Source: Trichodelitschia bisporula (lineage: Eukaryota > Ascomycota > Dothideomycetes > Phaeotrichales > Phaeotrichaceae). Taken from it: a stretch of 64,000 nt of DNA. The position numbers and the translations under genes were made by a program. The stretch covers positions 713,697 through 777,696 of the forward strand of contig ML996699.1 in assembly GCA_010356995.1 (NCBI GenBank). The letters are read 5' to 3'. This document shows positions 1 to 41,724 of this stretch, piece by piece. Within the stretch, counting starts at the first letter, position 1. Each line of letters starts with the position of its first letter. The notes under the pieces were generated by a model. It was not told the DNA's origin. It worked only from the letters and a program-made list of their open reading frames with translations, and did not search any database.

Positions 1-1709
1 GCAGGCTCCGTCCTGCGCCCCCCCAACTCCGCCCAAAAATGGCGCGACGCCGGTGCCCGCTTCGTAGGCGGCACCCTCGCCGGCGTCCGCTCGAAACTCG
101 GCTACCTATCCCGACTCGGCGTCGGCGGCGTGTGGCTCGGCCCCGTGTTAAAGCAGGTCCGCGGGCTGGAAACGTACCATGGGTACGGGGTGCAGGATTT
201 TCTGGCCGTGGAGAGCCGGCTGGGGACAAGGGAGGAGTTAAGAGAGGTGGTGAGGGAGGCTCATCGCGTGGGGATTTGTGTGGTGCTGGATGTTATATTG
301 AATCATGCGGGGGATGTGTTTGCGTATGAGAAGGAACGGCCGGTGTATGATGGGAGGGAGTATAAGGTGAAGGGGTGGTATGATGCGCGGCGCAAGGCTG
401 AGATTGCGTTCGGTCGTGGGGAGGTCGGGAAGGTAAAGGGGGTGTACCCGGATGGTGCGGTCTGGCCGGTGGAGTTGCAGGATCCGAGTTGCTGGACGCG
501 AAAGGGGCGGATTCGCGACTGGGATAAGGCGCCAGAGTATCTTGAGGGGGATTTCTTCGGGTTGAAGGCCTTGAGCCTGGGGGCGCACGCGGTGGATAAA
601 TTTGTTCCTACGCCCACGCTCAAGGCCTTGGTCGAGGTGTACAAGTTTTGGATCGCATACGCTGACCTCGATGGCTTAAGGATCGATACTGTCAAGCATA
701 TGGGCCATGGGCCGACGCGCTATTTCACCTCTTGTATAAAGGAGTTTGCGCAGGCGCTGGGAAAGGACAACTTTCTCATGGTAGGTGAGATTGCCGGTGC
801 AGGCGCGTTCGAGACCGTCGAAGTGACAGGTCTGGATGCAGCGCTGGGGATTGGGCACATGCAAGAAGCGCTGTGGAAAGTACCCAAGGGGCTTGAGGAC
901 CCGTCAGTAAGTGCGCTTCAGCCTCCCCCACCCGTCTGACAGCGTAGAAATACTTCTCCCTGTTCCGCAACGCCCCCTACAAGGAAAAGGGAAGCGGCCC
1001 TTGGTTCCGCAACAAAATCGTCACCATGATCGACGACCACGACCAAATCTGGCGTCTTACATCCAAGGGCCGCTTCTGCTCCGATCCTGTCGGCCAGAAA
1101 CTCATCTGTGCCGCGCTGGCGCTAAACCTGTGCACGTTGGGCATCCCATGCATATACTACGGCACCGAGCAGGGCTTCGACGGGGCCGGTGGATCTGGCA
1201 GCCAGGGACATCACTCGGACCAGTATATCCGCGAGGCGATGTTCGGCGGAGAGTTCGGAGCGTTTCGCACGAGGGATGTGCACTTCTTCCTTGAAGATAG
1301 TGAGATCTACCGCTTTATAGCCAATATCGTCAAGCTGCGCAGCGAGCACATTGCATTGAGGCGCGGGAGGCAGTTTCTGCGCGAGGTATCGTCGACAGGT
1401 ATTCGGTGGGGCTACCCAAAGATCAAAGGACAGCGGAGACGAGGCATTGTTGCTTGGTCCCGGGTGTTCAATGAGGTGGAGCTGCTGTGCGCGATTAGCA
1501 CTGACCCGGATAAGGCAACGGTGGCTTGGGTGGAGGTTGATCCTAGAATGAGTGCGGAAGGAAGTACCTTGGGTTGCTTGTATCCGGGAGGTGACGATGT
1601 CACTGTTCAGCGTAGGGGAGGCAGAGCGATGGTGAAGTTGATTGTTGAGGCGGGCAAATTCGTGGTGTATGGGCAGTCGAGCCATGTCGCAGTTTCATCC
1701 AAAATCTAG
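1..1709 (+). CDS. GH13 alpha-amylase-family glycoside hydrolase (5' partial)
   Basis: Glycoside hydrolase of the alpha-amylase family, acting on alpha-glucans or related sugars; the exact substrate cannot be read. The frame is open from base 1, so the start lies upstream of the window. Exons are 1-906 and 948-1709, with a 41-bp GTAAGT...TAG intron that joins DPS to KYFSLF in frame. The four conserved GH13 regions are visible: DVILNH (region I), GLRIDTVKH with the nucleophile Asp (II), VGEIAG with the acid/base Glu (III) and TMIDDHDQ with the transition-state Asp (IV). IPCIYYGTEQGF is also typical. No signal peptide can be judged. The C-terminal beta-domain has the GIVAWSRVFN / LLCAIST layout that I associate with bacterial-type family members, so an old bacterial origin is possible but is inference. 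The stop at 1707-1709 is clear. Confidence 0.93.
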
Positions 1710-32908: not shown

Positions 32909-33095
32909 GAACTCGTGGTCGTATACGCCTGACTCAAGTTCCATTACAGATGCCAAACTCGTGGTCGTATACGCCTGACTCAATCTCCATTACAGATGTC
33001 GAACTCGCGGTAGTCGATGCCTGATTCAAATTCTATACTATATAGAACCAGAAGTCGAACTCGTGGTCATCAACGTCTGGTTCAACTTCAATCCA
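32909..33095. repeat. four-copy degenerate tandem repeat, unit about 46-56 bp
   Basis: Successive copies begin AACTCGTGGTCGTATACG (32909 and about 32955), AACTCGCGGTAGTCGATG (about 33002) and AACTCGTGGTCATCAACG (about 33058), each followed by CTGATTCAA-like and CATTACAGATG-like words. It lies immediately before the first member of the small-protein array. Confidence 0.75.
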
Positions 33096-33120
33096 AGAGG
33101 TCGGGGTCCATGTACTCGTT

Positions 33121-33363
33121 TTACGCAAACGGTACATCCTCTCCATCCAACTTCGGCCCCAAATACTTATTCTGATAAAAGTTCTTGGGATTGCGCTTCG
33201 GGTCAGGCTCCTGCGACGCCTTGTACTCGCAGGGAGGACAGAGATTCTCGGAAGTCCCGCTGACCGTAGTGCGCTTGTGACCTGGCTGCCCTATTGCTTT
33301 ACAGTCGGACGCCTTGATCTTGGTGTGTCCGCACGCGGACTTGGTTTCGATAGTCTTACACAT
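33121..33363 (-). CDS. small CxH/CxxC protein, array member A
   Basis: Small protein of 80 residues, start MCKTIETKSACGHTK. Cys11-x-His13 is followed by Cys42-x2-Cys45 (LCPPCEYK), a CHCC set that could hold one zinc ion. It has one extra CxH-free Cys (SDCKAIG) and a basic, Asn/Lys-rich tail without the acidic repeats of other members. This subtype (MCK...ACGH...C..C) is the commonest form in filamentous ascomycetes, where it has no assigned function. An AT-rich TATA-like element (GTTATATATG) lies about 180 bp upstream of the ATG, at 33543-33552. Confidence 0.75.
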   Translation of the reverse strand: MCKTIETKSACGHTKIKASDCKAIGQPGHKRTTVSGTSENLCPPCEYKASQEPDPKRNPKNFYQNKYLGPKLDGEDVPFA

Positions 33364-34035
33364 ACTGACGGAGGATTTCCTGAATCTGAGATCTCGAACT
33401 TAGAACTGAAGGGAGAATGTTCTTTAAAACTGAAGCGAGAATCTTTGGAACTGGATGGGAGAAGATTCGAAATCAGATCCAGTGGATGTTTGAGCTCGAA
33501 GCTTGGGGTTGGTGGTGGGATGAAAGAGGAGTCTTTCATGGCGTTATATATGTGGATTCTCATCAGCGAATGTGAGTTCAGGAAGAAGATTGTGATCTCT
33601 GTATTTCGATATTCACTAATGCTTCAACGCACTTGGGAACACTTTACTTGCCTATGTGATTTGCGTATATGGTCAGCGAAGTCGGTGAGTGACTACATTT
33701 AGCTAATTGTAACCTTCTCAGTCCAGCCGCACCAAGTGTGATGGCCGGCGGAGGTGGAAGGAGAGGCAGGGTGGTAAATGTGAGATCGAAGGAGACTGAC
33801 GCTTAGCAGTATACACACCATCTTGCCTTCTCTCCATCATGCACTTGCGTTCTGGCGCCATGTAAGTCCTATACGTCTCTCACTCACCATGCAATACCTC
33901 ACTTTCACCCGTAGGAACCTCACTCACGAGTCGCCCAGATGCCTTATAAGCCTCGTACCTTCCCACTAGAAACTCTCTTTTCTCGTCCGTTACTACTTCC
34001 CTCATCTTCGCGCTACATCTTCACGCTGCAGGAAG
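33364..34035. other. intergenic between divergent array members A and B
   Basis: It holds the promoters of both neighbours. Member A has a TATATA element near 33545; member B has a CCTTATAAGCC box at about 33941-33951, some 85 bp before its ATG. A minus-strand frame at 33291-33563 is a shadow. Confidence 0.5.
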
Positions 34036-34320
34036 ATGTGTATCGTCAAGAGAGTCAAGTACGCATGCTACCACCCCGAGTGGGAGGCCACCAACCGGCG
34101 CGAGAAGGCCGAGCTGCCGTTTACGCACCCGGATCACGCTGTGCTTTGCGAGGGCGGGATTGAGGAATCTGGGGACAGATGTGCCGTGTGCTTGCGTCAC
34201 CGGGCGATGCTATTGGTGCTTTTGGTCTTGTATGTTTGGTATAGGATGCTTATGGCTGAGTACCGGGAACTTACGTTTTTTGTTTTCAGAATCAACATTT
34301 CGCTTACTTGGTACTTGTAA
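34036..34320 (+). CDS. small CxH/CxxC protein, array member B
   Basis: Start MCIVKRVKYACYHPEWEA. Cys11-x-His13 is followed by Cys49-x2-Cys52 (DRCAVCLRHR), so the spacing is a little longer than in its neighbours. After the CxxC the frame continues into a hydrophobic stretch (LLVLLVLYVWYRM) and stops at 34318-34320. The last third could instead be intron or 3' untranslated sequence, since a GTACC donor lies there and the family normally ends in charged residues. The N-terminal 55 residues are secure; the rest is not. Confidence 0.6.
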   Translation: MCIVKRVKYACYHPEWEATNRREKAELPFTHPDHAVLCEGGIEESGDRCAVCLRHRAMLLVLLVLYVWYRMLMAEYRELTFFVFRINISLTWYL

Positions 34321-34779
34321 GCTTGTCATCTCCACGGCCATCATCACGCTCATTTGGAACTTTCCTTGGTAAACTCCCCATCTCCACGGTCACCACCTAG
34401 CATAATCAATATAAACAACGATTGAACCGACTATCCACCCTTGACCCCCTTGACTGTAATGTGCCATGTCCTTGAAGTGAAATACTCCCGCTCCCTCAGT
34501 CTACCGGGATAGCCATCCCATGTTCGAACTGGAACTGTCCTGATCTGCAGCACGAAGACGCCTTGCACGGCGGTGTTCCAGCAATTGACCGTGCCCACAG
34601 TGAACGAACCGATGAGGACAGCTATGGTGATTGATGCGAGCCATCCACCTAGACGGGGGTGACGAAGGTAAAAGGAGTCACTGGAAAGGTAGTATAAAGC
34701 CTCGTTTTCGAACTGCACTCCTTCCTCGCCATTAACAAGCACACCAACTAGCCTTTTCAACCCAGTATCACAGTCCAAA
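34321..34779. other. intergenic between B and C, including C's promoter
   Basis: It carries the conserved promoter block described separately (34620-34702). A 124-residue minus-strand frame across this block is a shadow of the promoter, not a gene. Confidence 0.5.
34620..34702 (+). promoter_or_regulatory. conserved family promoter block upstream of member C
   Basis: Contains GCTATGGTGATTGATGCGAG, CCACCTAGACGGGGGTGA and then CACTGGAAAGGTAGTATAAAGC. TATAAA is at 34693-34698, 82 bp before the ATG. The same words in the same order occur, inverted, upstream of members D-G. Confidence 0.8.
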
Positions 34780-35232
34780 ATGCCCAATACCAAGATTGGT
34801 ATCACGCGTACCCACTACGCCTGCCACCACAGCACTCTGATCATAACCCCGCCCGACTCCTGGGATTCTATGGCTTTGGGGGACCGGCAGGTTACTAGGC
34901 ACCACGTGTTTAATGACGACAAGTGCCCGGCGTGCAAGGCCGGGGTGGAGGAAGCTTCAAAGCAAGAGACCTTGGATCGCAAGGTCTCGAAACAAAAGGT
35001 CTTCGACCAAAAGTCGGACTACAAGGGTTCGATTCACGGGTCTGCGGACCCCAAGGCTTCAGACCACAAAGATTCGGATGATAAGCCATCGGACCACGAG
35101 CCCTCGGAACATGAGCCCTCGGAACATGAGGCCACGGAACACAAGCCCTCGGACCACGAGCCTTCGGATGAGTGGGTGAATAAGAACTGCGGGACCGAGA
35201 CCAAGAAGAATGATGAATCTCACCCAGAGTGA
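34780..35232 (+). CDS. small CxH/CxxC protein with acidic/His pentapeptide repeats, member C
   Basis: 150 residues, start MPNTKIGITRTHYACHHS. Cys15-x-His17 and Cys49-x2-Cys52 (DKCPACKAG) form the family CHCC set. Residues 93-130 are tandem pentapeptides of the form S-(D/E)-H-(E/K)-(P/A), rich in Asp, Glu and His. The C-terminus NKNCGTETKKND is shared with other members. The start context CCAAAATG is conserved in the family. It is the only repeat-bearing member on the plus strand. It carries its own promoter block and the family 3' block (35265-35370), so the whole transcription unit was copied in inverted orientation. The acidic/His tail might bind metal, but this is inference. Confidence 0.82.
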   Translation: MPNTKIGITRTHYACHHSTLIITPPDSWDSMALGDRQVTRHHVFNDDKCPACKAGVEEASKQETLDRKVSKQKVFDQKSDYKGSIHGSADPKASDHKDSDDKPSDHEPSEHEPSEHEATEHKPSDHEPSDEWVNKNCGTETKKNDESHPE

Positions 35233-36077
35233 TATCCATGCTACGTTAATCAGTCGTGTAATAGCTGCAAGTCTGGAAGCTTAACGGTCAGAGGCCGAGG
35301 GCCGGACGAGGCTGAGATGCAGCATGGATCAAGAGATTAGCCTAGTTCTAGTTTGGATTCAATGAAGGTCCATGAAATTGATCATCCGTGCCGCGTGCTC
35401 GCTGCTCTGCTTCCATAGTGCAGAGTGATGACGTTCTTCCGCATCCCAAAAATATCATCCACCTTAACACACAAATCGGACCGATAAGCCTTCACAAAAC
35501 ACTTTTCAAGCCGGGGACGAAGGTGTGTAGCGAAAGATCACCTTATCAGGCAAAGCCCCACCACAAGGCTGTCATCACATGACAAGCAACCCGCCCCAAT
35601 CGAACCTCGCGCCACAATCCACAGACGGACCACCACGTCAACGGTAACACAAACACCTCACCCCAACAGCTGGAGCCCAACAGCTTGAGCTCCGCCTAAC
35701 GCGTTAACATGGGGCCATACCCGCTATCACCCACGGAATCGGACACCTCCAACACGTGTAGCATCGCGCTCGGAGAGCTCGGGGGAAAGATCTCGACGGG
35801 CACCTCGCGGCGTTCGTATCCCTCCCAGCTATGAACAACCTCCCTTCGCCGCAAGCAACAAAACCGGATATACCGCGATCTAGCCCCTCCTTGCTCATTC
35901 CTATCCCCAGCTCCTGCGGGGCACGCGTTCTCATCACACGCCTCCATCCCCGCGTCAGGTTTTATCGTCCATCACTCAGAGCGGATTCCTTGCCCGCATT
36001 CGGACAAAAGTCCATCCCGCTTCCGGCCCCGCGATCCACCGTCGCGGTCAGACCGCGTCAGCATCGGTGCTTCAGAC
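35233..36077. other. intergenic with family 3' block
   Basis: Bases about 35265-35370 match, inverted, the 3' blocks of members D-H (GAGGCTGAGATG, TTAGCCTAG, ATTCAATGAA). The rest is upstream sequence of the Rieske-type gene. Minus-strand frames near 35.7-35.95 kb have no recognisable content. Confidence 0.55.
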
Positions 36078-37289
36078 ATGGCGCTTGAGTTTCTCGCCGC
36101 GCTCGCGAGGTGGGGCGTCGGTGCGGGCGGGTTAAATACTAAGCTCCGTACCGCTGGTGGCCCGGGTGGGACGGGCGGCAAGGCTGAACGCCGTGACGAC
36201 GACTGCACCGCCGACCCCGATAACGACCCAGTTATGGATCTGCCCAAGACGCTTCCTGCGAGTTGGTACCGCAGCGCGCCGCTGTATGCGCTCGAGCGGC
36301 GGGCTGTGTTTCTCAAGGTGCGTGCCCTGCTTCGGGATATGAACGTATGCTGATCCATGGGCAGGCGTGGTACCTCCTCGGCCCTGTGACGCGCTTCCTT
36401 CCCGACGAGCCGGTGCGGTATGAGATTGCGCAGGTGCGGTTGTGCGCTTCGCGCGGGGCAGGCGGGCTGAGGGACGTGAGCGTCGTGGACGAAGACACAG
36501 GCTTGCCGCTCCGCAGCTACATCACATCCTCGGGGCTAGTCTTTAGCACCATCTCGGGCGACGCGCCAAGTTTCGTCGAATTCTTCCCCGATCTCGAGCC
36601 GTTGCTCGCGCGGGTGGACTTCACCAGACTGCCGCACCGGCGGAGTATACGCTACGAGGGGAAGTTCAACTGGAAGACGATGGTGGACGGATACCAGGAG
36701 TGTTTGCACTGCCAATATACGCACCCGTCTTTCAGCGTCAACTACCCGCCGACCTTCTACAGCGTGTCGAACCACTGCAATTTCAGCCAACACATTGCCG
36801 ACCCGGCGAAGCCGGACGATGGGCTGTTTCTGTACTTCTTCCCCAATTGCACACTCAATGTGTACGGCGGTGGGATGAGCAGCTTCCGCGTGTGTCCTAC
36901 GACTGAGCCTGGTGTCACGCGTATGGAATTCGATTACTACCACGTGGCGGACGGGGCGGAGTTTGAGTCGTATTTTGCGTTTGTGAGACAGGTTGCGCAG
37001 GAGGATTTTGAGCTGTGTGAGAAGGCGCAGGCGAATCTGGAGCAGGGGGTTTATGTTGAGGGGGTGTTGAATCCGGATAAGGAGACGGGTGTTGCGTGTG
37101 AGTTGTCTTCTTCTTCCCCGTGGGTGCCAACTGACGTATATAGTCTACCAACAGCAGGTCCTCAAGCTGGTGGTTGCGCAGCACGAGGCGGACAAGCAGC
37201 GCGCGGGCTTGATGAGGGAGGCTGGGCCGATGCCCGTGCGGGACGGGGCGGGGAGGCATGCGCTGTGTGTGCAGAAGGCGACGGCATGA
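36078..37289 (+). CDS. Rieske oxygenase-like protein with mononuclear iron site but no [2Fe-2S] motif
   Basis: 372 residues. Exons: 36078-36317, 36365-37097 and 37144-37289; introns are GTGCGT...CAG (47 bp) and GTGAGT...TAG (46 bp). The joins give ERRAVFLKAWYLLGP and TGVAFYQQQVLK. The catalytic domain is complete and typical of the fungal choline-monooxygenase-like group: FNWKTMVDGYQECLHCQYTH supplies the two iron His, and VRQVAQEDFELCEKAQANL supplies the Asp ligand. FFPNCTLNVYGGGMSSFRV is also characteristic. The Rieske part is absent. The sequence passes from YEIAQVRLCASRGAGG almost directly to the last strands (PLRSYITSSGLVFSTISG), without CxH or CxxH. Without that cluster it cannot take electrons the usual way. 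It lies between inverted copies of the small-protein family. A later in-frame ATG at 36234 (MDLPKTLPASWYRS) is an alternative start. Confidence 0.88.
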
Positions 37290-37589
37290 TGCGGGCGCCG
37301 AGGGTGGCGGAAGGTAGGGTAGAGGTAGAGGTTTGATTGGCATGTACCATATCACGAGAAGTGCTTCAACCAATTCAAATTCCGTTCATTCATTGAATCT
37401 AAGCTAGGCTATAATACTATCGCACCCATGCGACATCCGAGCCTGTTCAAGCCCTTGGCCTTGGGCCATGAGCCTCGGGAATGCAGTTCTTACACGGCTC
37501 GTTGACTTAGTACGATGTCACTTTCTTGGTGGACTAAGCGTCAGCCGTCTTTGCCTCGGTTCCGCAGTTCTCACCATTGAGCCTAGCCT

Positions 37590-37904
37590 GGAGAAGGGTT
37601 GACGAGGAGTCAGAGGGCGTATGATCCGAAGACTTGTGGCCTGGGACTTTGTACTCCCGAAGGCTTATGGATACGAAGCCTCCGGGTCCGAACCCTTATC
37701 ATCCTAGGCCTCCTGGTCTGAAGCGATCTGGCCCGTCGTCGCCATGCGCTTCAGGAGCTCCGCACGGTGCTTACATCCCGGACACATGTCGTCCCTAAAC
37801 ACGACCTGTGAGAAAGCCTCGTCTGCTTGAAGACTAGGATTTGCGGTGTCAGTAACGGTTGCGACTTGGTGGTTGCAAATGAAGATGATACGCGTGAGAA
37901 CCAT
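37590..37904 (-). CDS. small CxH/CxxC protein, member D (probably truncated)
   Basis: Start MVLTRIIFICNHQVATV. Cys10-x-His12 and Cys41-x2-Cys44 (DDMCPGCKHR) keep the family spacing. The ATG frame ends at 37704 after 66 residues. Downstream, another frame still encodes the family's acidic/His tail (KSSDHTPSDSSSTLL) and the terminal NGENCGTEAK, closely matching member F. A frame change has therefore cut off the tail while leaving the Cys/His part intact. The promoter block is intact (TATA about 100 bp upstream), so a short protein may still be made. Confidence 0.65.
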
Positions 37905-38000
37905 TTCGGGTGGCTAGTTTGGGTTGGGGTGCTAGGTTGAGAAGGGGATGACTGATGGAGGTGGTTAGGGACAGAGAGGAGGGATCACGGCTCAAGCGGA

Positions 38001-38080
38001 GCTTTTATACTACCTTTCCAGTCACATCTCACCTCAGTCACCCTTCGTCTAGGTGGCTCGCTTGCATCAGTCACCATACC
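38001..38080 (-). promoter_or_regulatory. conserved family promoter block, member D
   Basis: On the minus strand it reads ATGGTGACTGATGC, CCACCTAGACGAAGGGTGAC and then GTGACTGGAAAGGTAGTATAAAAGC in short successive words. The TATA box is at 38003-38009. Confidence 0.8.
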
Positions 38081-38381
38081 TCCATTCCCGGTTCATCCTG
38101 TGGGTACGGTCACTCGCCGTGACACGGCTAGAGCGGAGTGTCTTCCCTATCATGAGAGTACTTGATCAAGCAATCCGGACTTTGTCCTTTCATTAAATCT
38201 AAGCTAGGCTACTACTATCCGACCTATATAGCATCTTAGCCTCGTGCGGCCTTGGGTCTGAGGCCGTTGAGCCTTCGGACGTGTAGTTCTTTTACAGCTC
38301 ACTGATATAGCGCGGGCATCACTCTCTCGACGAGAACTGAGCTTTGTTGTCCTTCATCTCGGTCCCGCGGTTTGAGTCCAC

Positions 38382-38645
38382 CTACTGGTCCGTAGGCTTA
38401 CGATCCGAGGGCTTGTCATCCGATAGCTTGAGTTCCGAAAGCATATGGTCCAGGGACTTATGATCCGAGCTCTCCTGATTCGAGGACTCATTCGTACCGG
38501 CCTTACAGTGGCGACATTTTTGCTCGGCGAAAATGTGCTGTGCACGCGTCCGCAGGTCCTCATGAGTAATTGAGCCTAGGCGATTGGGCAGGATTATGAT
38601 TATGGCGTCGTGGGGGCAGCTGACGTGGATTTGCAAGATAGGCAT
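38382..38645 (-). CDS. small CxH/CxxC protein, member E
   Basis: 87 residues, start MPILQIHVSCPHDAIII. Cys10-x-His12 and Cys44-x2-Cys47 (QKCRHCKAG). A short Ser/Asp/Lys tail (SELKLSDDKPSD) is shared with member G. The stop falls just before DNA that still resembles the family's terminal NRGTEMKDNK, so the protein may be slightly shorter than its ancestor. Start context CCAAAATG. Confidence 0.72.
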   Translation of the reverse strand: MPILQIHVSCPHDAIIIILPNRLGSITHEDLRTRAQHIFAEQKCRHCKAGTNESSNQESSDHKSLDHMLSELKLSDDKPSDRKPTDQ

Positions 38646-38691
38646 TTTGGGTAAAGGGAAATCGGGTGATACTTGGGTTGGCTGGTAAGTG

Positions 38692-38770
38692 GGCTTTTAT
38701 ACTACCTTTCTAGTCACTCGTCACCTCTATCACCTCCGTCTGGGTAACTGGCTGGTAGCAATCACTATAC
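38692..38770 (-). promoter_or_regulatory. conserved family promoter block, member E
   Basis: Reads GAAAGGTAGTATAAAAGC on the minus strand, with the TATA box at 38696-38702, only about 50 bp from the ATG, closer than in its relatives. Confidence 0.75.
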
Positions 38771-39057
38771 CTGCCGTTCCCGGGTTTACACGCGCTCGGC
38801 ATGGTGTCTCGTCATGATACTGCCCAGACAAATTATTTTACCATATACCGAGAAGTACTTCGCTTAATAAATCAATCAATTCAGATTCATTCATTCATTC
38901 ATTCATTCATTTATTCATTGAATTTAATCTAGACTACATTACTATCCGGCCCATACTACCATCTCAGCCTTGTCTGGCCTCGGGTCTTAGGCTATTGAGC
39001 TTCGGACTTGCAGCTTCTTAGACAGCTTAAAGTACAACCATCAGACTCTTGGTGATA

Positions 39058-39489
39058 CTAAGCACCGCTCTTCTCCGTTTCCGTTCCGCAGTCCTCATCC
39101 TTAAACTCAGTCCATAGAAGGGTTGACGAGGGTTCAGAGGGCTCGTGGTCTGAAGCCTCATGCTCCGATGACTTGTGGTCCGAAGCCTCGTGGTCCGATG
39201 ATTTGTAGTTCGAACCCTCATGCTCCGATGGCTCGTGGTCCGAACCCTCGTGCTCCGAAGCCTTACCCTCCGGAGCCTTATCATCCTCGGCCTGGTAGCC
39301 TGAAACATTGCGCCTATACTCCACAGCTACGCGGTTCAAGAGCTCATGGAGCTTGCACATGGGACAGATGTCTTCGCTGTACACGACCTCCGTAAAATGT
39401 GACTCGTCCCTAAGCAACCTAGGATCCTGACCGCTATCCATGCTTACGATCATGTGCTGGCAGCCGTAGAAGGTGCGATTGATGTCCAT
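39058..39489 (-). CDS. small CxH/CxxC protein with acidic/His pentapeptide repeats, member F
   Basis: 143 residues, start MDINRTFYGCQHMIVS. Cys10-x-His12 and Cys42-x2-Cys45 (DICPMCKLHELL) form the CHCC set. Residues 77-120 are tandem pentapeptides S-(D/E)-H-(E/K)-(P/A/G/S), and the end is DEDCGTETEKSGA. It is the best preserved member on the minus strand and the closest relative of D. The ATG context CCAAAATG and the promoter block at 39570-39650 are intact. Confidence 0.82.
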   Translation of the reverse strand: MDINRTFYGCQHMIVSMDSGQDPRLLRDESHFTEVVYSEDICPMCKLHELLNRVAVEYRRNVSGYQAEDDKAPEGKASEHEGSDHEPSEHEGSNYKSSDHEASDHKSSEHEASDHEPSEPSSTLLWTEFKDEDCGTETEKSGA

Positions 39490-39569
39490 TTTGGGCGATA
39501 GATATTTGGGTTGTGATGCTGAGTAAGGAAGGGGATGGTGGAGAGGAAGGATTGTGGGGGGAGAAGGAG

Positions 39570-39650
39570 GCTTTTATACTGCCTCTCCAGTCACTCCTCG
39601 CTTCTTGTCAACCTCCGCCTGGGTGATTGGCGGGCATCAGTCACCATACC
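39570..39650 (-). promoter_or_regulatory. conserved family promoter block, member F
   Basis: Minus strand: ATGGTGACTGATGC and GACTGGAGAGGCAGTATAAAAG, with the TATA box at 39572-39578, about 85 bp before the ATG. Confidence 0.78.
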
Positions 39651-39886
39651 TGCCATTTTACCATATCACGAGAAGTGCTTCAATCAAACAGTTCAGACTT
39701 CTTTCATTCATTAAATCTGAGCTTCGCTACCAGACTGCTATCTGACCCATGCAGCATCTCAGCCACGTGCGGCCTTGGGTCTAAGCCTTCGGACTTGCAG
39801 TTCTTACATAGTTTATTGACATAGTACAAATCTCACTCCGGCGAGACTAAACATTGCTCTTCTTCGGCTCGGGCGGCAGTTCGCAT

Positions 39887-40132
39887 TTACCTACTTTCCG
39901 AGGGCTTGTCGTCGGAGAGTTTGAGTTCCGAGAACATTTGGTCTAAGGATTCATGACCGGATGTCTCTTGGCCTGAGTTTTCCATTGTACTGGTCGTACA
40001 CGCGTGACAGCTGTCGTCGACAATTATGTGCTCTATGTGCGTCCGTGGGTCCCTAATAGAACCTGGGGAATCGGGCGGACCTATGATCGTGAGGCTGTGG
40101 GAGCAGGTGTAGTGGAATTGCAAGATAGCCAT
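39887..40132 (-). CDS. small CxH/CxxC protein, member G
   Basis: 81 residues, start MAILQFHYTCSHSLTII. Cys10-x-His12 and Cys42-x2-Cys45 (DSCHACTTS). The tail (SELKLSDDKPSESR) matches member E, and DNA beyond the stop still resembles the family's terminal CGTETKKS. Closest relative is E. Start context CCGAAATG. Confidence 0.72.
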   Translation of the reverse strand: MAILQFHYTCSHSLTIIGPPDSPGSIRDPRTHIEHIIVDDSCHACTTSTMENSGQETSGHESLDQMFSELKLSDDKPSESR

Positions 40133-40213
40133 TTCGGGTAAGGGGGAATTGGGTGATACTAGGCCGGCTGGTAAGTGTGTCTGATGAGAGAGAGGAAGGC
40201 GGGTGGAGAACGA

Positions 40214-40302
40214 GGCTTTTATACTACATTTCTCGTCACTCCTTGCCCCTAGTCACCTCCCTCTTGGTCACCTCAATCTAGGTAACTACTCGTATCAGTC
40301 AC
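40214..40302 (-). promoter_or_regulatory. conserved family promoter block, member G
   Basis: Minus strand: TACCTAGATTGAGGTGACC and then GAGAAATGTAGTATAAAAGC, with TATA about 85 bp before the ATG. Confidence 0.72.
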
Positions 40303-40485
40303 CTCGCCCAGGGACGTCACCAATCACTTCAACTTTCATTCATTCATTGAATCTAAGCTAGGCTACACTACTCTCCGACCATCTGGAATCTCAGCCCCAT
40401 CCGGCCTGGGCAGTCGACCGTCAGCTTTTGAGATTTGCAGTTGGTACTGGTTCATCGACGTAGTACGGATGTTACTCGAGTGAGA

Positions 40486-40842
40486 CTAAACCTCGCTCTT
40501 CTTCGTCTCGTGTCCGTTATTCGCATGCAAAAGCTCCCAATCCGCATCCATCGAGTGGTCCGTGGGCTTGTCGTCCGAGGACTTTTCATCCGAGGGTTTG
40601 CCGTCTGAGGCCTCGTCGTCCGAGGACTCGTCGCACACGCAGTGGTGGTGGCGACACTCGCACGAGCACTGGGACCCGCACTCGTCGTCCTCGGTCTTCG
40701 CGTCCTTACTGTACGGACAGTTGGTGTCGATGTGACGCACGTTCGAGATATCCGGCCTAGACCCATTATAGATGAGCTCCTGATCGTCACCAGCGGTGAT
40801 CTTGATGTGGTAACAGTCCTATTTGGTGAGCGTGAGACCCGG
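40486..40842 (-). pseudogene. array member H, Cys-rich, start lost
   Basis: Its beginning (GLTLTK, DCYHIKITAG) aligns with the first residues of member I (GLTYTN, LCGHIAMYAG). The ATG is gone, and a stop codon stands where I has Tyr. The rest is open to the family end HANNGHETKKSEV. An unusual Cys/His-rich insert (ECGSQCSCECRHHHCVC) precedes the acidic repeats (DEASDGKPSDEKSSDDKPTD). It starts only about 60 bp after the stop of I and has no promoter block of its own. It is therefore a decayed copy or, less likely, a second cistron. Confidence 0.6.
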
Positions 40843-40904
40843 TGGCGAGTCTGATGACGTCTTGAAGTCGTCAACTCAGGGCTTGGAGGGTGTGTGGACC
40901 GAGG

Positions 40905-41096
40905 TCAGGCGCTCCAGATGTCGTGAACCCAGGCATTTTCATGATAAAAGCCCATGCGATGACACTCCGGACACACGTTGCCGATGTTTTCCACCCTAGT
41001 GAAAACCGGCCCTTTCCCGGAATAAACGGGATCAACGCGGTGGCCGGCGTACATCGCGATGTGACCGCAGAGGTAATTCGTGTATGTGAGGCCCAT
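40905..41096 (-). CDS. small CxH/CxxC protein, member I
   Basis: 63 residues, start MGLTYTNYLCGHIAMYAG. Cys10-x-His12 and Cys42-x2-Cys45 (NVCPECHRMGF). It consists of little more than the CHCC core and lacks the acidic tail. Start context TTAAAATG. A diverged family promoter block lies at 41195-41310. Confidence 0.75.
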   Translation of the reverse strand: MGLTYTNYLCGHIAMYAGHRVDPVYSGKGPVFTRVENIGNVCPECHRMGFYHENAWVHDIWSA

Positions 41097-41724
41097 TTTA
41101 AGTAAAGGGATTTGGATTATGAGGTTGAGTTTGGAAAAAGATGGCTGGTGGAAGAGGATGGCGATGGAGAGGAAGGAGTGTAGCTCGAAAACGAGGCTTT
41201 ATGATACCTCTTCTGTGGCGCCTCACGTTTTGTCACCTCCATCGTGATCACCCCCGTCTCCATCTCCATCACCTCCATCTAGGTGGCTAACTCGGTTCTG
41301 TCACCATACTTGTCGCCGGCAGTTCTAACGCTGTTAACACGGTGCTTCGTCGTGATACCGCCCGGATAAAGTGACTTACCATTTCACGAGAAGTGAATTC
41401 AAGGGATCCAGCCTCCACACATACTCGTAGACATCGAAGACATCGAAGACATCGAAGCATGCACGTAAGGCAGGAGCACTGCTCTGCAGGAGGGAACATG
41501 ATGTAATATGCGCACATTGGGGGAAGGAGCATGCAAGTATACTTGACACCACTGTGTACTTCTTCTCGAGCGTCTTTTGACTCGCTTTTTCTTCTTGTCT
41601 TCCATTGACTCTTCACTTCACTGTAGCCATCTGCACGTGCTAAGCCTATGCTTCCGTTAAGGAAGACATCTCGGACTCAGAATGAACACCGGTGCAAGCC
41701 AAAACGGGTATCAAATTAAGCCGC
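41097..41724. other. intergenic: promoter of member I, array boundary, 9-bp repeat
   Basis: It holds the diverged promoter block of member I (41195-41310, with CCACCTAGATGGAGGTGA on the minus strand), the distal boundary word of the array (41377-41397) and a three-copy GACATCGAA repeat (about 41430-41456). No gene is seen. Confidence 0.6.

Follow-up and report, generated by a model that had tools for sequence, protein, structure and literature searches.

The genome of Trichodelitschia bisporula carries an array of small genes within the window studied here, a 64,000-nucleotide stretch of contig ML996699.1 (C13:713697-777696; other contigs of the 25.65-Mb, 30-contig genome are labelled C3, C28 and C7). 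The array is located ~190 kb from the nearer end of the 943,630-base contig, and so not at its extreme end. Within 8.2 kb there are eight ATG-started open reading frames (ORFs) encoding C-x-H-(28-35)-C-x2-C, together with a broken further domain. These are homologous genes of one duplicated family, not parallel inventions; the four putative metal ligands are conserved in two subfamilies, a promoter is shared by most members, several copies are decaying, and further copies are present on two other contigs. The members, named A to I, are listed below, the number inside each motif being the spacer in residues from His to Cys.

33121-33363, minus strand: member A, 80 amino acids, CGH-28-CPPC, beginning MC; an ORF placed in subfamily II by profile score
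34036-34320, plus strand: member B, 94 amino acids, CYH-35-CAVC, then a hydrophobic stretch; placed in subfamily II, with matches on C3 and C28
34780-35232, plus strand: member C, 150 amino acids, CHH-31-CPAC plus an acidic/His pentad tail; subfamily I, from ORF and alignment
37704-37904, minus strand: member D, 66 amino acids, CNH-28-CPGC, tail shortened by a stop
38382-38645, minus strand: member E, 87 amino acids, CPH-31-CRHC, tail stopping at a TAG near the family C-terminus
39058-39489, minus strand: member F, 143 amino acids, CQH-29-CPMC, long pentad tail
39887-40132, minus strand: member G, 81 amino acids, CSH-29-CHAC, short tail; nearest relative E
40486-40842, minus strand: region H, a broken second domain CYH...CPYS, then an open Cys/His-rich and acidic tail
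40905-41096, minus strand: member I, 63 amino acids, CGH-29-CPEC, promoter present, tail absent

Orientation is thus mixed across the array, with A on the minus strand, B and C on the plus strand and D to I on the minus strand. All nine domains lie where an earlier note on this DNA had placed them, and eight of them (A to G and I) carry both C-x-H and C-x2-C as it had described; what it counted as nine copies amounts to eight genes plus a second, broken domain (H). In the eight with the full motif, CxH starts at residue 10-15 and CxxC at residue 41-49, with proline at the second position of CxxC in A, C, D, F and I. An ORF scan with the pattern M-(4..16)-CxH-(24..44)-CxxC gave eight matches in the cluster vs none in the remaining 55.8 kb of the window. 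Dinucleotide shuffling of the 8.2-kb cluster (200 shuffles) gave a mean of 0.03 matches and a maximum of 1, which excludes chance or composition as the source of the motif. When 12 stretches, each of 10 kb, around the window, C3 and C28 were scanned in a comparable way, four ORFs were found, all members of a related family; one stretch holds 164 N, and an ORF at C3:1639997 straddled a stretch edge and was found only by search. Just past the 3′ end of A, at 32910-33103, there are four copies of a 46-bp repeat, the first three in near-perfect tandem.

A duplicated family in two subfamilies

Members C to I have DNA in common well beyond the motif, including an upstream block shared by C, D, E, F, G and I, and a 3′ block.

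34677-34706, plus strand: promoter core of C, a TATA-like block common to subfamily I, one A shorter than in D to G
37996-38025, minus strand: promoter core of D, shared block with the core pattern
38688-38717, minus strand: promoter core of E, shared block with the core pattern
39565-39594, minus strand: promoter core of F, shared block with the core pattern
40210-40239, minus strand: promoter core of G, shared block with the core pattern
41143-41223, minus strand: promoter region of I, an inverted repeat with a 75% match to the promoter region of C
37367-37426, minus strand: shared 3′ region of D, a repeat family with copies at 63-83% to the reference
38167-38226 (E), 38892-38951 (F), 39685-39744 (G) and 40321-40380 (I/H): equivalents of this 3′ region, in the same repeat family and identity range

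The TATA-like core reads AGTATAAAAGC in D to G. Pairwise identity in the upstream block is 56-85% over 75-128 aligned bases, and that of the domains is 44-66% (15 pairs). Allowing up to one mismatch, the core pattern occurs at four places in the 25.65 Mb (D, E, F and G; it misses the shorter core of C), and the reversed control at none. The proteins are also alike, with expectation values (E) of 5.7e-16 between C and F and 5.9e-19 between E and G, and their C-termini are related: NCGTETKK in C, DCGTETEK in F and NGHETKKSE in H. Promoter, tail and 3′ DNA are thus common, in whole or in part, to C to I, which therefore form one duplicated gene family; the earlier statement that the residues between the ligands vary freely had understated this homology. 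An ATTC microsatellite of 8.8 copies (38885-38919) is located at the shared 3′ block of F.

Decay is evident in several copies, as broken copies, stops and tail remnants, and confirms what had been noted of it along with the clustering and the size range. D, E and G stop early in the tail, and remnants of the family C-terminus are recognizable past the stops of D (NCGTEAK, in another frame) and E (NRGTEMK), less clearly for G. Region H has CCG at the expected place of the ATG, an in-frame TAG just before its CxH, and no promoter of its own, since the sequence upstream of its domain is the coding region of I. Its CxxC reads CPYS, so that the second Cys is indeed lost as had been described, the loss being wider than this. 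The missing promoter, missing ATG and in-frame TAG rule out nine independent genes. H contains an I-like match with one TAG (E 0.03). I has a promoter and no tail, and the 3′ block of the I unit lies beyond H, so that I and H together resemble a single unit in which the domain is doubled, the second domain of that unit being either broken or joined through an intron. The preferable reading of H is as a portion of the I unit, or else as a remnant. Candidate GT-AG joins of 40-260 bases giving an open product of >130 residues were ranked by 5′ splice-site score. Among the best 25 listed the top score was 3 of 4, in every case through one site in the I domain and deleting the CxxC of I itself, and joins retaining both domains scored 2; a spliced I-H gene is unproven. 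The tail of H contains a Cys/His-rich stretch (40558-40740, minus strand), CGSQCSCECRHHHCVC, with a metallothionein-like look and not seen in the other members.

The family is not confined to the window. B used as query hits C3 (E 2.2e-7) and C28 (E 1.0e-6). The proteins of those copies in turn lead to a tandem group of six CxH...CxxC copies at C3:1638906-1641956, of which two carry stops; one of the broken copies is without the His of CxH, and the other without CxxC. The genome searches return best candidates only, so that copy counts are lower bounds. No other copy was found in the genome search with A as query. A match of E on C7 (E 0.05, 28% identity) was dropped as probably due to chance. 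Two subfamilies can be distinguished. Subfamily I comprises C, D, E, F, G and I/H, which have the promoter and the domain in common. A Ser/acidic/His tail also belongs to this subfamily, and C and F alone have it in a long form. Subfamily II comprises B, the six copies on C3 and one on C28, and A fits here too, with an hhalign score of 29.0 to the profile of subfamily II and 18.2 to that of subfamily I (for A there is no shuffle control). The alignment of the two profiles covers 47 columns (hhalign P 1.1e-5, probability 82%) and has a score of 29.7. When the ligand columns were held fixed the maximum of 200 shuffles was 26.7, none reaching the observed score, and thus the subfamilies are alike beyond their ligands.

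Conservation of the putative ligands

Of the 47 gapless columns aligned for subfamily I (C, D, E, F, G and I), the only ones that do not vary are those of the four ligands and of Met1, the last being constant through the way the ORFs are chosen. Among the ligand codons, those of the first Cys and the His are identical in all copies, and those of the other two Cys differ by synonymous changes alone. A neutral simulation on a star tree with the median synonymous distance (dS) of 0.88 gave 0.25 invariant columns expected and a maximum of 3 in 300 runs. The neutral probability that a given residue is retained in all six copies is 0.004 for a Cys and 0.002 for a His, values made somewhat too small by shared ancestry, given the assumption of a star tree. 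Subfamily II (B, four C3 copies and that on C28) keeps the same four ligands. Besides these, the invariant positions among its 58 columns are Met1, one Val and one Leu; each of the four ligand codons shows synonymous changes, and the neutral expectation is 0.07 invariant columns.

Outside Met1 and the ligands, the ratio of nonsynonymous to synonymous change (dN/dS) for three independent pairs of subfamily I is 0.99 (bootstrap interval 0.63-1.51). Over the domain alone it ranges from 0.39 to 1.65 with a median of 0.93 (15 pairs), and over longer stretches including H from 0.38 to 1.17 in 20 of 21 pairs, the other being saturated. Taken together, the invariance of the ligand columns and the value of 0.99 elsewhere support selection on the putative ligands, as the codon comparisons suggest. 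They fail to show strong diversifying selection, and the 'diversifying surroundings' that had been proposed find no support in the strict sense, the rates being compatible with relaxed constraint.

Predicted fold, tails and function

The domain models suggest a β-hairpin, a strand and a helix, with one ligand pair at the hairpin turn and the other at the start of the helix. The AlphaFold2 input alignment was of the eight window domains, and the models contain no metal. For the domain of F the predicted strands are at 3-7, 13-17 and 33-37 and the helix at 43-56, with a mean predicted local distance difference test (pLDDT) of 76 (59-76 in five models); C10 and H12 lie in the turn that links strands one and two, and C42 and C45 at the beginning of the helix. 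The model of B has strands at 4-8, 14-18 and 42-44 and a helix at 50-93 (pLDDT 73, with residues 23-31 and 33-40 under 50). In a treble clef two ligands are located in a knuckle between strands and two at the N-terminus of a helix, and the layout of the models would be that of such a fold. RING domains have eight metal ligands in C3HC4 order and a cross-brace, and their second site is CxH...CPxC. The pairing of C-x-H with C-x2-C in eight of the nine domains here, five of them with CPxC, is like this, as is the modelled position of the two pairs. The difference is that here there is a single site with four conserved ligands, the other four RING ligands being absent, and no RING family appears among the Pfam matches listed up to E 5 (weak ones were mostly filtered out).

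None of the nine window members, and none of five copies from C3 and C28, reached a Pfam gathering threshold. A sequence search of the PDB gave nothing significant, the lowest E being 0.35 with subfamily I and 1.0 with subfamily II. No description of the family was found in the open-licence literature judged from titles and the starts of abstracts. A, B and the copies on C3 and C28 resemble small 'hypothetical proteins' of fungi with the form MC-x(7-8)-CGH...C...CPxC, which we presume to be common in databases for Pezizomycotina, and relatives in fungal protein databases very likely exist. Subfamily I differs from this type in having a pentad tail and no initial MC.

The region following CxxC differs between the subfamilies. 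In subfamily I it contains tandem repeats of 15 or 30 bp (from Tandem Repeats Finder and a tally of pentads) that encode S-[DE]-x-[EK]-x pentads:

35074-35168, plus strand: pentad repeats of C
39145-39258: pentad repeats of F
40558-40633: pentad repeats of H

Across C, E, F, G and H the tally comes to 28 pentads, most of which conform to S-[DE]-x-[EK]-x; His occupies the third position in 15 and Pro the fifth in 12. Since the pattern used to pick them restricts positions 1, 2 and 4, information on residue preference comes from positions 3 and 5 alone. S-D/E-x-E agrees with the consensus of casein kinase 2, so that phosphorylation of the tail is possible. C and F each have eight His after CxxC, D, E, G and I have one to three, and subfamily II has none or one. 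In subfamily II the sequence after CxxC includes a hydrophobic stretch in B and in three of the other five intact copies. The Kyte-Doolittle maxima over 19 residues are 1.93 in B (from residue 49), 1.82 in the C28 copy, and 1.76 and 1.25 in two C3 copies. The remaining pair of intact C3 copies reach 1.02 and 0.48, and A reaches -0.35. No N-terminal signal sequence is evident by eye and hydropathy, the highest value being that of E (1.45 over residues 1-19).

The array is probably best explained as an expanding and decaying family of small intracellular proteins, each with one zinc site and with differing tails, that undergoes local birth and death. The CxH at the hairpin turn and the CxxC at the helix start would together hold a single metal ion, most likely zinc. 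The metal would replace the hydrophobic core in a domain of ~45 residues, leaving most other residues free to change, and the site would be a structural scaffold rather than that of an enzyme. The C-terminal part would determine the place or the contacts of the protein, which may be cytosolic or associated with membranes. In subfamily I this part would be the acidic, Ser/His-rich pentad tail, and in subfamily II a hydrophobic, possibly membrane-anchoring, helix in several members. Copies would be born by tandem duplication of promoter, gene and 3′ region, and lost through stops. From the metal onward we infer each of these steps.

In favour of this explanation, all four ligands are kept in 13 of 13 domains with an open frame and at least one is lost in all three that are broken by stops (H, C3:1639662 and C3:1641792; Fisher P 0.0018), but the test is biased in that several of the intact copies were first recognized through their ligands. 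Other observations tell against the explanation. The median dN/dS of 0.55 in subfamily II (15 pairs) indicates some constraint beyond the ligands, and the values close to 1 at the non-ligand positions of subfamily I would equally suit nearly dispensable genes. The synonymous distances are large, making the rates imprecise. The metal-free models derive from eight sequences and are of modest confidence (predicted TM-score 0.50 and 0.45), and a Foldseek search with them gave no significant fold match (best E 0.78 and 2.3).

The proteins might instead be adaptors or recognition modules, with the zinc site as a scaffold and a variable loop under diversifying selection that binds copy-specific targets (self/non-self, antagonists or partners that change). 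No column between the two ligand pairs is invariant in subfamily I, there is tandem turnover, and the closest pair, E and G, has a dN/dS of 1.37 without ligands and Met1. The interval for this pair (0.60-3.51), like that for the three pairs given above, does not establish selection above neutrality, and we regard such a role as possible and rather doubtful. Metal handling, in which zinc or some other metal would be bound by the site together with the His/acidic tail so as to be buffered or delivered, and in which only the ligands and the composition of the tail matter, seems unlikely. It would account for the lack of anything fixed in subfamily I besides the ligands and Met1, the frequency of His at the unconstrained third position of the pentads, and the stretch in H rich in CxC and HHH. 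F has sub-threshold Pfam matches to SelP_N (E 0.095) and Zip (E 3.2), but these are at chance level; long His tails are restricted to C and F, subfamily II is almost without His after CxxC, and a single CxH/CxxC set is typical of a structural site.

That the array is mostly dying, its duplicates retained by chance, its ligands alike through recent common origin and most copies without present function, is improbable. The truncated or broken state of D, E, G and H and dN/dS near 1 are as expected on this explanation. The median dS nevertheless represents ample time for change, there are five invariant columns (including Met1) where 0.25 are expected, and the alignment shows the frame maintained across changes of length within the domain.

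A further comparison is with the ZiF family of secreted effectors (AVR-Pii of Magnaporthe), described as small fungal proteins that are variable, with pseudogenized members and a single zinc site made up of three Cys and a His; the ligands of AVR-Pii are Cys51, Cys54, His67 and Cys69, i.e. CxxC then HxC, and the family was filtered on a signal peptide (PMC11213319). The proteins here are likewise small, highly variable and fungal, with one putative site of three Cys and one His and with broken copies. Effectors of this kind are nonetheless very improbable here, since ZiF proteins are secreted and host-directed with CxxC...HxC, whereas in the array CxH comes first, CxxC follows and no signal sequence is evident by eye and hydropathy.

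If the site is that of a one-zinc mini-protein as preferred here, the family would be a natural case of a domain reduced almost to its metal ligands, which stay fixed in two subfamilies of one genome at high synonymous distances. Non-ligand positions change at about the neutral rate in subfamily I, subfamily II being more constrained. This yields a testable claim about the minimal sequence needs of a folded mini-protein, together with a seed alignment for a family that matches no Pfam model; its importance would be greater if strain data showed true diversification of the loops. Quite tentatively, there may be a fungal superfamily of mini-proteins in which the single zinc site is nearly the sole selected feature of the domain (and the only one seen in subfamily I). 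It would be a minimal scaffold on which tails are exchanged (membrane helices, a Cys/His-rich insert, acidic/His repeats that may be phosphorylatable), and the loops of duplicated copies would explore sequence almost unconstrained.

Interrupting and neighbouring genes

Between C and D the array is interrupted at 36078-37336 (plus strand) by a gene like those of ring-hydroxylating oxygenases (Pfam Ring_hydroxyl_A, E 8e-23). A Rieske motif of the form C-x-H...C-x2-H with a spacer of 12-22 is absent from 35701-37400 in all three forward frames, and the top alignment from the PDB starts at residue 144 of the relative, which we take to lie after the Rieske part. The iron-sulphur domain of this gene therefore seems to be missing. 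A neighbouring gene is that of Enp2/NOL10, with a score of 426 bits to 6rxu vs 275 bits to 5wlc (both Enp2) and 243 bits to 7mq8 (NOL10), structures that we take to be from Chaetomium, yeast and human, respectively.

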